Source of the DNA: Desulfobacterales bacterium
GTDB taxonomy: Bacteria > Desulfobacterota > Desulfobacteria > Desulfobacterales > JARGFK01
Reading direction: 5' to 3'
Length of the DNA: 47,589 bases
Assembly (NCBI GenBank): GCA_029211065.1
Contig: JARGFK010000027.1
Coordinates: 1 to 47,589, forward strand
The notes under the pieces were generated by a model, which saw only the letters and a list, made by a program, of their open reading frames with translations, did no database searches and was not told the origin of the DNA. The position numbers and the translations under genes were made by a program. This document shows positions 504 through 6,020 of the stretch, piece by piece; the stretch's first letter is position 1, and every line of letters begins with the position of its first letter.

Positions 504-1778
504 ATGCCCATGACGGATCAGTTCAAGGACCGCCTTTTTCCTGTTTTAGCGGCGGTCAGCGCCCATTTCGGAACCCCTTTTCATATTTATGATGAGGCCG
601 GTATCCGCGCCACTGCCGAGTCGCTTACAAAGGCCTTTTCCGGGATAAAAGGGTTTCGGGAGTTCTTTGCCGTAAAGGCTCTCCCGAATCCGAGTATCTT
701 AAAGATTATGGAAAACATGGGGTTCGGGTTCGACTGCAGTTCGATTCCGGAAATCCTGCTGAGCCGAAAAGTCGGGGGATATGGCGAAGACATCATGTTG
801 ACGTCCAACAATACCAGCAGGGAAGAATTCAGGGTTGCAGCCGCAGATGGCGGATGCATTCTGAACCTGGACGATGTATCGCTGATTCCCAAGGTGCCGG
901 AAATGCCCGAGCTCATCTGTTTTCGATACAATCCGGGTCCCCTACGAACCGGAAATTCGATTATCGGCAATCCGGTTGAGGCCAAGTACGGCGTCAGCCA
1001 TGAACAGATCCTGGCTGCCTACCGGGATGCCCGGGCCCTGGGGGCAAAACGGTTCGGTCTTCACACCATGCTGGCCTCAAATGAACTCAATTATGTTTAT
1101 ATGGTGCAGACCGCTGAAATGATTTTGGAACTGGCCGGGTGGATCGGAAACGAACTCGGCATCCGTTTTGAGTTTTTAAATATCGGCGGCGGTTTCGGCA
1201 TCCCTTACAAACCAATGGATGCACCGCTCAATATAGATGTTATGGCAAAGGAGATTACGCAGAGGTTCCATCGATTCGGTGAGCAGAACGGTTATATGCC
1301 GAAGCTGTTTATTGAAAGCGGCCGCTATATGACCGGACCCCACGGGGTGCTGGTGACCAAAGCGATCAATCACAAAAACATATACCGGAAATATATCGGG
1401 GTTGATGCCTGCATGTCGGCCCTGATGCGACCCGGCATGTACGGCGCGTATCACCACATCAGTGTCCTGGGGAAGGAAGATAGCGCCAAACGAGTGACCG
1501 TGGATGTGGTGGGGTCGCTCTGTGAGAACAACGATAAGTTTGCGATCCAGCGGGATCTGCCGGAAATAACCGAGGGCGACATCCTCATTATCCATGACAC
1601 CGGCGCACACGGGCATGCCATGGGGTTTAATTACAACGGCAAACTGAGGCCCCAGGAGCTTTTACTGCGGGTCGACGGTCGGGTGGAGTTGATTCGCCGG
1701 GCAGAAACCGTTGACGATTATTTCAGCACCTTTAATTTTGATGAAAAGATTTTCACACCGGCAGCCGGTTCGCGATAG
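504..1778 (+). CDS. lysA: Diaminopimelate decarboxylase-like PLP enzyme (LysA family, fold III)
   Basis: 424 residues, the family's usual length. The PLP lysine is K58 in FFAVKALPNP. The glycine-rich phosphate loop is NIGGGFGIPY, followed by ESGRYMTGP. The C-terminal sheet domain carries VDACMSALMRPGMYGAYH and GSLCENNDKFA, the Cys-Glu pair that reaches into the partner active site. The family forms L-lysine from meso-diaminopimelate. The segment normally HCHIGSQ reads HTMLASNE here, and the final motif is HDTGAHGHAMGFNYNG instead of the usual GAYG form. This is therefore a divergent subclade and the substrate is less certain (another D-amino acid or carboxy-polyamine decarboxylase is possible). 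AAGGAG at 488-493 supports the ATG at 504. The HAD/AIR fusion follows after 34 bases, probably in the same transcript. Confidence 0.85.
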   Translation: MPMTDQFKDRLFPVLAAVSAHFGTPFHIYDEAGIRATAESLTKAFSGIKGFREFFAVKALPNPSILKIMENMGFGFDCSSIPEILLSRKVGGYGEDIMLTSNNTSREEFRVAAADGGCILNLDDVSLIPKVPEMPELICFRYNPGPLRTGNSIIGNPVEAKYGVSHEQILAAYRDARALGAKRFGLHTMLASNELNYVYMVQTAEMILELAGWIGNELGIRFEFLNIGGGFGIPYKPMDAPLNIDVMAKEITQRFHRFGEQNGYMPKLFIESGRYMTGPHGVLVTKAINHKNIYRKYIGVDACMSALMRPGMYGAYHHISVLGKEDSAKRVTVDVVGSLCENNDKFAIQRDLPEITEGDILIIHDTGAHGHAMGFNYNGKLRPQELLLRVDGRVELIRRAETVDDYFSTFNFDEKIFTPAAGSR

Positions 1779-1812: not shown

Positions 1813-3441
1813 ATGATACCCCATAAGCCTTTCCATGTTAAGGCTGTTCTGTTCGACTTTGACGGCACGCTGACCGAGCCGGGGGCCCTGAATTTCACCA
1901 GGATCAAAAAGGCCATCGGCTGCCCCGCCGACAAACCCATCCTGGAATATATCGAGACCCTGAAGGATCCCCATCACCGCCGGGAAGCAATGGATAAACT
2001 GGTCCGGTTTGAAATCGAAGGGGCTGAGAAATCCGTTCCCAATTCCGGTGCGGAAGAAACAATTTCCTATTTGCGATCCAAGGGCCTTCGGGTCGGCATT
2101 ATCAGCCGCAATGGCCGCGAATCCATCCTGCGGGCGCTGCAGAATTTCAGCCATCTGAACGCTGCCGACTTTAGTCTGATCATATCCCGGGACGATCCGG
2201 TCCGACCGAAACCCAACCCGGACGGCATCCTGCTGGCTGCTAAGACTTTTGGGATAAATACCGCCGAGTTGTTAATGGTGGGAGATTATGTCTTTGATAT
2301 TCAGGCCGGGCTTCAGGCCGGCGCTGTCACGGTACTGCTGGATAATCGAACCGAACCGGATCCCGCCATGCCGCCCAGCGATTATAAGATTTCACGCCTG
2401 GCCGATTTGAAAAAAATCATCCGCCCGGGACTGCCGCTGTCGATCGGCAAATTGCCCAATGAACTCCTGGGTGAATTTCTGGGCAAGGTCGCTTCCCGGG
2501 ATCCTGCGATTCTGATCCATCCGGGAATCGGTGAAGATACGACTGCCGTGGATGTGCAAAAGGAGGAAGTGGTTGTTCTCAAGTCAGATCCCATCACGTT
2601 TGTTACGGATTCCATCGGGCGATTCGCCGTTCTGATAAATGCCAATGATATTGCTACATCCGGGGCCCGGCCGCGCTGGTTTCTGACGTCGCTGCTGTTT
2701 CCCTGCGGGACGACCGCTTCGCAAATCTGGCAGGTCATGCATGAACTCAAAACCGTCTGTCAACAGTGGGGGATCCTCTTGTGCGGCGGCCATACCGAGG
2801 TTACCGATGCGGTTTTGCGGCCGGTGGTGACGGGGATGCTGGCGGGAACGGTTTTGCGAAAAGATTTGATTGATAAACGCAACATTCAAACCGGAGATGT
2901 GGTGTTACTCAGCAAGGCCGTTGCCGTGGAAGGAACCGCCATCATTGCCGCCGAGTTCGGCGATAAACTCAAACGGCAGGGGCTGACGGACAAGGAAATC
3001 GACGCCTGTAAAGGCTTCCTGGAGAGCCTCAGCGTCTTGGAAGAAGCACGACTGGCCGGGGGCAGCAAAGGGGTGGTCGCCATGCATGACGTTACCGAAG
3101 GGGGGCTGGCCACGGCGTTGGATGAATTGAGCATTGCCGGCGGTCATGAAATCCGCGTCGAGATGGACAAAATCCCTGTTTTCACCGAAACCCATAAGCT
3201 TTGCAAATTGCTCAAGCTGGATCCCCTGGGTCTGATCGGATCCGGCAGTCTGCTGATCTGTTGTCGCAAAAACGCACTGGAGACCCTATTGGCGCGTATC
3301 CGGAGGGCCGGAATACGGATAACCCCCATCGGCGAGATATTGGAGAAAGGCCAAGGTGTGAAAGCCTTTCGACAGGGTCTTCCGGTTGAATGGCCCGCCT
3401 TTGAGGTGGATGAAATCACCCGCCTTTTCCGTCCTTTATGA
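1813..3441 (+). CDS. HAD-family phosphatase fused to an AIR-synthase/HypE-like ATP-binding domain
   Basis: 542 residues in two parts. Residues 1 to about 205 form a complete HAD hydrolase: motif I DFDGTLT (D15, D17), motif II IISRNGRES, the lysine in RPKPNPDG and motif IV VGDYVFDIQAG, with a cap like phosphoglycolate phosphatases. Residues about 210-542 are an AIR-synthase-related domain of the PurM/HypE/SelD/ThiL superfamily: GKLPNELLGEFLGK, the phosphate/metal loop GIGEDTTAVDV, NANDIATSGARPRWF, LCGGHTEVTD and HDVTEGGLATALDEL. The PurM-type fold usually activates a carbonyl or carboxylate with ATP, and the HAD part usually removes phosphate. The joint substrate is unknown. It follows the LysA-like gene closely. 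The continuous frame and full-length domains argue against a chance read-through. Confidence 0.8.
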   Translation: MIPHKPFHVKAVLFDFDGTLTEPGALNFTRIKKAIGCPADKPILEYIETLKDPHHRREAMDKLVRFEIEGAEKSVPNSGAEETISYLRSKGLRVGIISRNGRESILRALQNFSHLNAADFSLIISRDDPVRPKPNPDGILLAAKTFGINTAELLMVGDYVFDIQAGLQAGAVTVLLDNRTEPDPAMPPSDYKISRLADLKKIIRPGLPLSIGKLPNELLGEFLGKVASRDPAILIHPGIGEDTTAVDVQKEEVVVLKSDPITFVTDSIGRFAVLINANDIATSGARPRWFLTSLLFPCGTTASQIWQVMHELKTVCQQWGILLCGGHTEVTDAVLRPVVTGMLAGTVLRKDLIDKRNIQTGDVVLLSKAVAVEGTAIIAAEFGDKLKRQGLTDKEIDACKGFLESLSVLEEARLAGGSKGVVAMHDVTEGGLATALDELSIAGGHEIRVEMDKIPVFTETHKLCKLLKLDPLGLIGSGSLLICCRKNALETLLARIRRAGIRITPIGEILEKGQGVKAFRQGLPVEWPAFEVDEITRLFRPL

Positions 3442-3895
3442 TAACCGCAAAATCCAGCAGGGCATCGTCAACGTCAGCCTAAACTGATTCAGATGGAAAC
3501 GATTTGCTTTCCCGGTTAAGGCACTCAACTTCCAAATCACAATACTCAATTTTCAAGCAATATCAAAATTCCAAATTCCAATGAAGATGGTCTCGTAAAA
3601 AGTATTCCAATTGTCATGCCGGACTTGATCCGGCATCCAGAACCGTCTGAAATTCCTGGATTCCCGCCTTCGCGGGAATGACGAAAGAGGCGCATTTTCG
3701 ACTTTTTACAAAATCATCAATGAACAAACTTATTTATTTCAAAATGTTGTCTGGTTAAGTGAAGTGACCTTGTTAAATCAAGAGATGAGATTGACCTTGC
3801 CGCAGGTATCGTGTATAAAAAAACTATCAGCAATTAATACAGATTTTTGATAATTTTGTAACACTTGCTCACAAATCAGATTCGAGGGTGCGGGA
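3442..3895. other. Intergenic region with a palindromic repeat element and no gene
   Basis: No convincing ORF. The first part is A/T-rich and contains short iterations of the AATTCCAA type. A terminal-inverted-repeat element at 3586-3719 is annotated separately. The ribosome site of the next gene (GAGGGTGCGGGA) lies at the right edge. Confidence 0.7.
3586..3719. repeat. MITE-like element with two internal palindromes
   Basis: The ends are imperfect inverted repeats (GATGGTCTCGTAAAAAGT at 3586-3603 against the complement of ACTTTTTACAAAATCATC at 3702-3719). Inside are two hairpins: ATGCCGG..CCGGCAT near 3616-3636 and TTCCCGC..GCGGGAA near 3661-3678. A related block lies at 7224-7305. No ORF inside, so it would need a transposase supplied elsewhere. 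Confidence 0.7.
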
Positions 3896-5056
3896 ATGGA
3901 CAGCCATTTAGAAAAATTACCATCCATGGTTGATGCCATCAGGGCCATCAAGGAGATTATTATCACCAATATCGTTCTGATCGGCCAGATTCCCTCTCCG
4001 ACATTCAAGGAAGAAAAGCGCACCCGGATTTTTATGGAACGCCTGGCAGAAGCACAGGTTGATGAATGCACGACCGATGCATATGGCAACCCCATCGGAA
4101 TTGTCAAAGGGACTTCCGAAGCCAACCCGCCGATTTTTGTGGTGGCGCACCTGGATACTTTCTTTGGTGAGGATGTCGACCACAACTTCACCGTCAAAAA
4201 AAAGACCATTTCAGGGCCGGGGATACTGGACAATTCCGCCGGCGTCGGGGTGTTGGCGTCCTTGCCGGAAATTATGCGCACATTGGGCATTGGCTTTAAA
4301 TCGGATATCGTCCTGGTCGGCGATATTCAATCCATCGGCAAGGGGAATCTTCGCGGCATCCGCAACCTCTTAAAAACCTGGCCGACGCCCATCCGGGGGG
4401 CTGTCTGCATCGAGGGGGGGGAACTCGGACGGCTTAATTACTACTCGGACGGAATGCGGCGATGTGAAATCACCTGCAGCATACCATCGACATTCAGATG
4501 GACACACAAATTCAGGCCCAACGCGATCCTGATATTACATGAAGTCATCAATCAAATTTTAAAAATGCGCCTGCCGCAAAAACCGCGCGCACGGGTCATC
4601 ATCGGCAAAATCGCCGGCGGCGTTGATTATGGGGAGATCGCCCAGGACGCCATCCTGGGATTTGAAATCCAAAGTGATACCGATAAAATGGTCAAAGCCA
4701 TTTATCGGGATATCAAGGACATTAAGAACGGCATCAGTCACGAACACGAGGTCGAGCTGCAGCTGCGAACCGTCAGCAGCCTGAATGCCGCCCGACTCAG
4801 GTTCAACCACCCGCTGGTGAAAAGCGCCGCCGAAGTCCTCAAAAAACTGGAGTTAAAGCCGGTCAGCGTTTCCAGCGAAACAGAGCTTTCCATTTTTCTC
4901 TTTCACAAGATACCGGCCGTCACCATCGGCATTACCAAGGGGGAAAATTACCATCTGGAAAACGCCGTCATCAAGATCGCGCCCATCTATAAAGGGATTG
5001 CTCAGTTGATCGGCATACTGATGGCGATTGACAGCGGGGTATGCGATGAACAATAG
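3896..5056 (+). CDS. M20-family metallopeptidase homologue lacking the catalytic Glu pair
   Basis: 386 residues with the M20 (PepT/CPG2-like) layout. Metal-site residues visible are H85 and D87 (VAHLDTFF), D112 (GPGILDNSAGVGVL), E173 (CIEGGELGRL) and a C-terminal His (ENYHLENAV). The dimerisation domain lies between about 185 and 290. The segment that in active members reads VGEEGLGNLRG aligns without gaps to DIQSIGKGNLRG, so the general-base Glu and the following metal-ligand Glu are S146 and I147. Normal peptidase chemistry is therefore unlikely. It could be a binding protein or a changed hydrolase. The ATG at 3896 follows GAGGGTGCGGGA. The 3' end overlaps the gpgS start by 11 bases, which indicates translational coupling. 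Confidence 0.75.
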   Translation: MDSHLEKLPSMVDAIRAIKEIIITNIVLIGQIPSPTFKEEKRTRIFMERLAEAQVDECTTDAYGNPIGIVKGTSEANPPIFVVAHLDTFFGEDVDHNFTVKKKTISGPGILDNSAGVGVLASLPEIMRTLGIGFKSDIVLVGDIQSIGKGNLRGIRNLLKTWPTPIRGAVCIEGGELGRLNYYSDGMRRCEITCSIPSTFRWTHKFRPNAILILHEVINQILKMRLPQKPRARVIIGKIAGGVDYGEIAQDAILGFEIQSDTDKMVKAIYRDIKDIKNGISHEHEVELQLRTVSSLNAARLRFNHPLVKSAAEVLKKLELKPVSVSSETELSIFLFHKIPAVTIGITKGENYHLENAVIKIAPIYKGIAQLIGILMAIDSGVCDEQ

Positions 5057-6020
5057 CTGGCTCAATAAAAACACGTTCCACTACGCCGAGTTCCGCGATC
5101 TGGAGCGGCTGGTGACGGAAAAACAAAAAAAGAAAATTACAATTTCGCTATGCCTGCCGACCTTGAATGAAGAGAAAACAATCGCAAAGGAAATCGTGAT
5201 CATGAAGTCGGAGTTGATGACGCGATATCCTTTGCTGGACGAAATTGTTGTGGTGGACTCCGGATCAACCGACCGGACCCGTAAGATTGCCAGGGAATAT
5301 GGCGCCGATGTTTACGAGGCCGCAAATATCCTGCCGCAGCAGGGTCATTTTAGAGGTAAGGGCGAGAACCTGTGGAAGGCGCTTTACGTTACCCGGGGCG
5401 ACATTATCGTCTACCTGGATGCCGATATTAAAAATATTCATCATCGGTTTGTCTATGCGCTGGTGGCCCCGCTGCTTCTTTACGACGGGATTAAATTTTG
5501 CAAGGCGTTTTATGACCGGCCCATCGCCACCGGGGAAAAAAAGATGCGCCAGACCGGCGGCGGCCGGGTAACCGAGCTGGTCATCCGGCCGCTCTTTTCG
5601 CTGTTTTTTCCGGAATTGACTCAAATCATTCAGCCGCTCTCGGGTGAGTATGCCTGTTTCCGGGATGTGCTGGAAAAAATTCCATTCCCCATCGGATATG
5701 GTATAGAAACCAGTATGATACTGGATATCTATGAACGCTGGGGGCTGGATGTCATGGCCCAGGTAGATCTTGAAAAGCGAGTCCACAGAAATCAGGGCAT
5801 AAAGGCGTTGGGAAAAATGGCTTTTGTCATTCTGAATACATTTGCGCGGCGTATCGAAAAGCAGGGATTTATCAAAATAAACAAATCAACCTATTCCGAA
5901 ATGATTCAATATAACCTTGTCAAGTCGCAGTACCAGGCGGATATTTTTAAAATTGAGGGGGTTGAGCGGCCGCCCATGATCGAAATCCCGGAATATCGCG
6001 AAAAATTCAATATCCATTAA
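5046..6020 (+). CDS. gpgS: Glucosyl-3-phosphoglycerate synthase (GT81)
   Basis: 324 residues from the ATG at 5046; a TTG at 5028 would add six. Transfers glucose from an NDP-glucose donor to 3-phosphoglycerate, the first step to the compatible solute glucosylglycerate. Family signatures: SLCLPTLNEEKTI, VVDSGSTDRT, GKGENLWKAL, the metal motif YLDADIKNIHHRFVY, TGGGRVTELVIRPLFSLFFPEL, QPLSGEYA and GYGIETSMILDI. Cytosolic, with no membrane segments. The phosphatase GpgP that completes the pathway is not recognisable in the window, unless the HAD domain 1.6 kb upstream takes that role, which is speculative. Overlap with the M20-like gene ties the two in expression. Confidence 0.9.
   Translation: MNNSWLNKNTFHYAEFRDLERLVTEKQKKKITISLCLPTLNEEKTIAKEIVIMKSELMTRYPLLDEIVVVDSGSTDRTRKIAREYGADVYEAANILPQQGHFRGKGENLWKALYVTRGDIIVYLDADIKNIHHRFVYALVAPLLLYDGIKFCKAFYDRPIATGEKKMRQTGGGRVTELVIRPLFSLFFPELTQIIQPLSGEYACFRDVLEKIPFPIGYGIETSMILDIYERWGLDVMAQVDLEKRVHRNQGIKALGKMAFVILNTFARRIEKQGFIKINKSTYSEMIQYNLVKSQYQADIFKIEGVERPPMIEIPEYREKFNIH

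Follow-up and report, generated by a model that had tools for sequence, protein, structure and literature searches.

The window analysed here, a 47,589-nucleotide stretch of contig JARGFK010000027.1 (assembly GCA_029211065.1) from a Desulfobacterales bacterium, carries at 3896–5056 (+) an ORF that raises a simple question: what does a protein that looks like an M20 hydrolase do when it lacks the catalytic Glu-Glu pair and its gene runs into gpgS, the gene for glucosyl-3-phosphoglycerate synthase? A first-pass annotation, made from the letters alone, had suggested a role tied to glucosylglycerate, either as a regulator or as an unusual hydrolase of a glycosylated or phosphorylated product.

The ORF begins with ATG and encodes 386 amino acids; we call its product M20L. 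Pfam PF01546 (M20) scores 22.2 bits on it against a cut-off of 24.6, a match to Pfam M28 is also below cut-off, and in an NCBIfam scan all models remained far from their cut-offs. The best PDB match is the poly(aspartic acid) hydrolase PahZ2 (7ljh; phmmer, E 6e-31). Modelling of the structure, which the first-pass annotation had proposed as a check, gave an AlphaFold model with a mean pLDDT of 91.1 (72 aligned sequences) and the fold of the M20 catalytic and lid domains. Among the matches listed for this model, 7ljh reaches Z 42.9 over 375 residues (24% identity), and the 49 other structures lie at Z 29–35, the best of them at 34.8. The phmmer match, the model and its best fold match thus agree in making M20L, as modelled, a full-length M20-fold protein of PahZ2-like type.

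PahZ2 and M20L share their fold across those 375 residues and align without gaps through the catalytic motif (GEEGSGDLRG in 7ljh, QSIGKGNLRG in M20L), so the Glu-Glu of 7ljh lies opposite Ser146-Ile147 (codons TCC and ATC, 4331–4336 (+)), as had been read from the sequence by eye. Unlike PahZ2, which has Glu-Glu and GGHS at these places, M20L has a Ser followed by a hydrophobic residue at the pair and lacks both GGHS, the motif of the lid-domain His, and the Asn of GGxxxN. In what follows we take the M20 residue roles to be catalytic Glu, bridging Asp, lid His and substrate Asn, and Asp112 to be the bridging metal Asp. The window protein keeps the His85-x-Asp87 motif (4148–4156 (+)), Asp112 (4229–4231 (+)), Glu173 (4412–4414 (+)) and His353, the last metal His (4952–4954 (+)). 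The six canonical relatives closest to M20L have Asp at residue 173, and the change to Glu there may be linked to the Glu-Glu loss.

The replacement is a property of the family. We compared 103 distinct M20L sequences, comprising those of 43 relatives, an 80-locus genome-scan set and a few others; one row is gapped at 146/147, and one sequence (L136, also read as L182) belongs to the second clade described below. Among the 102 homologues with letters, position 146 is Ser in 100, Thr in one and Met in one, and position 147 is Ile in 47, Leu in 42, Met in 11, Ser in one and Val in one. The Ser is therefore conserved as the first-pass annotation had wondered, while the Ile as such is not, position 147 being Ile, Leu or Met in 100 of 102. 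Glu occurs at neither position in any of the 102, so Ser146-Ile147 is not a product of chance or of assembly error; misalignment of the motif is likewise ruled out by the ungapped 7ljh match together with this conservation. The other metal ligands had been said to remain, which is correct for the window protein (H85, D112, E173, H353) and fails for the family at one place: residue 85 is H in 98, N in three and R in one of 102, residue 87 is D in 102/102, residue 112 is D in 99 and E in three of 102, and residue 173 is E in 102/102, but only 67 of 103 sequences have H at residue 353. The GGHS and GGxxxN strings are absent from all 117 distinct M20L proteins, some of which are cut by contig ends; GGHS is present in all six nearest canonical relatives. 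A neighbouring Glu might have stood in for the lost pair, and it was looked for: no conserved acidic residue is found at 143–149 in the window's clade.

M20L orthologues at ≥56% identity are present in 43 of the 96 relatives searched (window genome counted). Beyond these there were only weak matches, in eight further genomes of the 96 and at another site in G053. The motif was read in five of these nine places (L046–L050, the others being G009, G081, G024 and the G053 site); Glu-Glu is present in all five, and the proteins are canonical M20s. A genome scan with patterns derived from this first clade kept 80 of 134 confirmed relatives, and occurrence beyond the phylum was covered by that scan and a plasmid search. 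The latter returned 21 records, all at <60% identity, and the three that were read keep the Glu pair and lack gpgS in the surrounding stretch; gpgS for its part is present in three plasmid records. A phylum-wide draw of 395 genomes yielded clade 1, canonical M20s (G240, L137; G268, L138) and one distant M20L relative (G181). Within the order of G181, 15 of 242 genomes carry what we term clade 2, which is ~33% identical to M20L of the window's clade. Its pair is Ser-Leu in 14/14 readable sequences, so that no M20L homologue with the standard Glu pair was found in either the 102 or clade 2. Position 148, adjoining the pair, is Glu or Asp in 13/14, and residue 353 is H in 3/14 and N in 11/14.

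In a quick tree with long branches among the other sequences, the two M20L clades form one group (SH-aLRT 100) against 21 other M20- or M42-type sequences; these 21 "canonical" rows include five of another type that are gapped at the pair and one with Asp-Glu. At the seven places, the six closest canonical relatives read His, Asp, Asp, Glu, Glu, Asp, His, and they carry GGHS and GGxxxN besides. L137 and three plasmid homologues likewise keep Glu-Glu together with both motifs, and a look for gpgS in the stretches around all ten found none. The grouping of the two clades, combined with the Glu-Glu of canonical relatives, points to a loss that is old, single and maintained, and on present evidence the pair would have been lost once, before the M20L clades split.

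Downstream, gpgS occupies 5046–6020 (+). Its product scores 382.6 bits against NCBIfam PRK13915 (cut-off 262; scanned from a TTG at 5028), has solved relatives 3f1y, 3e25 and 4y6n, and carries the DxD motif (D125, D127), which is conserved in at least 95% of 96 and at least 90% of 13 paired GpgS and in 4/4 unpaired ones; score and motif together place it in the GpgS family. The mycobacterial GpgS (Rv1208, PMC2674218) shares its enzyme name and function with the matching family model, and the available text of that source names no M20-type partner and does not contain the word "peptidase". The ATG at 5046 encodes a Met conserved in paired GpgS, although a same-frame TTG lies earlier, at 5028. 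With this start, and with the M20L stop ending at 5056, the two genes overlap by 11 nt (5046–5056 (+)), which bears out the overlap that the first-pass annotation had pointed to.

The arrangement recurs throughout: gpgS lies directly downstream of M20L in 43/43 relatives, and all 111 distinct M20L-gpgS pairs are on the same strand with gpgS downstream. Overlap is seen in 109 of the 111, over 8–26 nt, lengths that are approximate since start codons were picked by nearness; the other two pairs are 29 and 70 nt apart. Six loci were dropped from this count, five in which the sequence ends 4 to 193 bases past M20L (L089, L096, L121, L126, L190) and one in which the contig breaks off within M20L (L196). 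In clade 2, gpgS follows M20L in 13 of 15 loci, the remaining two being loci where the contig stops on that side. gpgS matches at E <1e-130 occur in the same 43 of the 96 relatives as M20L (Fisher 2.6e-28, uncorrected for kinship), and wherever the contig extends far enough no M20L without gpgS was seen.

The wider surroundings bear on what M20L may do. In eight clade-2 loci compared, we found a GH13 sucrose-phosphorylase-like gene in five, a mannose-6-phosphate-isomerase-like cupin in six, a weakly GT4-like gene in six, a HAD phosphatase in six and a mannosylglucosylglycerate-synthase-like GT4 in four. These counts derive from automatic ORF picking, in which longer antisense ORFs hid some genes (M20L, for one, was picked in five loci), and the GH13, HAD and GT4 NCBIfam matches are below those models' cut-offs. 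A mannosylglucosylglycerate-synthase-like GT4 (E ≤1e-40, none over cut-off) is present in 43/43 M20L genomes versus 7/53 others, and a close GH13 homologue in 33/43 versus 6/53; the window genome has two such GT4 genes and no such GH13. The co-presence with gpgS in the 96 genomes, the overlaps and the clade-2 cluster, with its phosphorylase-like GH13, GT4-type transferases and HAD phosphatase, strongly support the proposed tie to glucosylglycerate.

A tie to the pathway could mean that M20L is still one of its enzymes, acting with changed chemistry on a glucosylglycerate derivative, through a mononuclear metal site (H85, D112, E173) or through Ser146 with His85-Asp87. H85, D87, D112, E173 and S146 hardly vary in either clade, and the clade-2 surroundings resemble an osmolyte pathway, as such an enzyme would have it. 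Yet the residues are not beyond change: H85 is N or R in four, D112 is E in three and S146 is T or M in two of the 102, and all nine of these genes still adjoin gpgS. The lid His and the GGxxxN Asn are gone as well, and the last metal His is variable. We consider a remaining enzymatic role unlikely, if worth keeping in mind. Of the two roles first suggested, that of regulator is favoured, and that of unusual hydrolase is disfavoured because M20L has lost the Glu pair along with the lid His and the substrate Asn, and often also the last metal His.

M20L might alternatively be functionally separate from GpgS, for instance by binding a ligand or by catalysing a step of some other pathway, in an operon that was merely inherited. 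Around clade-1 M20L the upstream neighbours vary, with a hemD-like gene in 39/80 loci, a hemC-like gene in 36/80 and other genes at other loci. Downstream, 47/80 loci, as well as the window, have a moaA-like gene, with many of the loci being short (neighbours named by eye). These recurring genes look unrelated to osmolytes, as a separate function would predict. Against it, the M20L-gpgS pair stays constant while the clade-1 upstream genes change, it is kept in two clades whose surroundings differ, and M20L does not occur without gpgS where the contig allows the reading. We regard this as somewhat less probable still than a residual enzyme. In the window itself, the upstream genes include a diaminopimelate-decarboxylase-like ORF at 504–1778 (+) (286.2 bits versus a lysA cut-off of 297.9) and a single ORF at 1813–3441 (+) that combines a HAD phosphatase domain with an AIRS (HypE/SelD-like) domain. 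A palindrome-like intergenic stretch lies 5′ of M20L at ~3620–3690, and two short strings taken from it occur on the + strand only at 3630, 3675 and 6445.

M20L is under purifying selection. Over 12 close pairs each, dN/dS is 0.06–0.26 for M20L and 0.07–0.18 for GpgS, the pairs being the closest of equal length, with each locus used once, from 138 (M20L) and 167 (GpgS) in the identity range. No internal stop lies within the M20L match in any of the 43 relatives, and 57 positions are invariant in 43 rows and 54 in 72 rows. A decaying pseudogene, a frameshift or a sequencing artefact, for which only the active-site losses and two broken-looking copies speak, is refuted for the M20L family by the dN/dS values well below 1, the absence of stops within the matches and the invariant positions, and we give it practically no credence. 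One of the two copies, in G061 (L041, before 4994), lacks its first 48 residues mid-contig with gpgS intact downstream, and is either a broken copy or an assembly fault; the other, a clade-2 copy in G683, has an internal stop and is also cut by a contig end. In G006 a 73-aa remnant of the gpgS C-terminus was seen (L203:8914–9132 (−)), with no M20L in the stretch.

The reading we think probable is that M20L is a pseudoenzyme, a former M20 hydrolase that now serves as a dedicated non-catalytic partner of GpgS, stabilising it or controlling it allosterically. The loss of Glu-Glu, the fixed pairing, the matching presence and the low dN/dS together argue for a conserved pseudo-hydrolase tied to GpgS, and suggest that the former enzyme is now a helper or sensor for it. 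Several observations count against a partner role. Two of them are the broken-looking copies in G061 and G683 and the strong retention of H85, D87, D112 and E173, which could reflect residual chemistry. A third is the mirror-tree distance correlation, which is 0.72 for M20L-gpgS and thus below the 0.82 of gpgS-moaA (partial correlations 0.34–0.52, a weak test). Short gene overlaps, besides, are common in operons.

The fourth is that GpgS persists without M20L. GpgS over cut-off is found in 12 of the 395 phylum genomes, eight of which have M20L; the four others are G402, G219, G367 and G146. In G219, gpgS sits between a GT4 gene and a phosphatase of phosphoserine or ribazole-phosphatase type, and in G367 and G146 it is beside a weakly GT4-like gene. 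In G402, a 604-aa ORF (L152:1474–3288 (−)) has GpgS C-terminal to what by eye is a universal-stress-protein-like part, and this fusion adjoins a GT4-like gene. The G367 locus (L206) has flanking genes in common with clade-2 loci, and M20L, the cupin, GH13 and HAD were not found there. In a tree whose bootstrap is unsettled and in which both rows have an unusual letter make-up, GpgS of G146 and G367 fall with clade 2 (97/95), where they occupy a branch of ~2 changes per site; a topology holding all paired GpgS apart from G146/G367 is only marginally rejected (p 0.039), and the data do not reject one in which clade-2 GpgS forms a clade that leaves both out (p 0.35). G367/G146 reads as loss of M20L with fast change of GpgS, though other cluster genes are also missing at the G367 locus. 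A syntenic locus without M20L whose GpgS lies on so long a branch counts in favour of a partner role. Eight positions conserved in paired GpgS are absent from all four unpaired ones (M1, C36, E49, S55, E56, Y123, R168, F266); M1 is a mere alignment gap, and since four unpaired sequences are too few, the remaining seven are merely a lead for an interface.

A partnership of this kind could have arisen as follows. A PahZ2-like M20 hydrolase would have lost metal catalysis before the clades split and been retained as a partner of GpgS. The overlapping genes, probably with coupled translation, would supply the two proteins together, and M20L most probably binds GpgS without catalysing anything itself, lending it stability or exerting allosteric control. 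The old metal pocket (His85, Asp87, Asp112, Glu173, Ser146) may have been reused for a ligand, candidates being a glycerate-type or sugar metabolite, or one metal ion. More tentatively, and with the balance of our judgement leaning against it, the entire clade would have become the regulatory subunit of GpgS, its dimetal site rebuilt, by Glu-Glu to Ser-hydrophobic and Asp to Glu at 173, into a polar, metabolite-sensing pocket that gates osmolyte synthesis. In a bolder form, a metal-free Ser146-His85-Asp87 catalytic triad possibly arose inside the M20 site.

To our knowledge, pseudoenzymes that control glycosyltransferases are few, EryCII being one. EryCII lacks the haem ligand, and HisZ is a relative of histidyl-tRNA synthetase. 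As the available text of PMC3391682 has it, the P450 homologue EryCII stabilises and allosterically activates the glycosyltransferase EryCIII. The likeness to M20L-GpgS lies in a homologue of a different enzyme kind coupled to a glycosyltransferase; the fold and the transferase are other ones, and the EryCII-EryCIII complex is proven, whereas that of M20L and GpgS is inferred from genomic linkage. In short-form ATP phosphoribosyltransferase (HisZ-HisG), the accessible part of PMC9734150 describes HisZ as a regulatory protein with no catalysis of its own that activates HisG and carries the effector pocket. This resembles the proposed pairing of a non-catalytic regulatory protein with a catalytic subunit, and differs from it in folds and reaction and in that control of GpgS by M20L is a proposal from our data. 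In the open-access literature, outside which most subscription journals lie, we came across nothing published on GpgS having an M20-type partner, and nothing on PahZ2. The kind of arrangement, a pseudoenzyme tied to a glycosyltransferase, is already known; within the literature searched, an M20 fold acting in this way seems not to have been described.

For annotation, these results are a warning that resemblance to M20 alone is insufficient to call gpgS-adjacent proteins hydrolases. If our reading is true, M20L would be a glycosyltransferase-controlling pseudoenzyme that has the M20 peptidase fold as its scaffold and has persisted in two bacterial groups, the Desulfobacterales and a second group of the same phylum, and it would make a testable prediction for these bacteria: that it controls GpgS, which catalyses the first step of glucosylglycerate synthesis.
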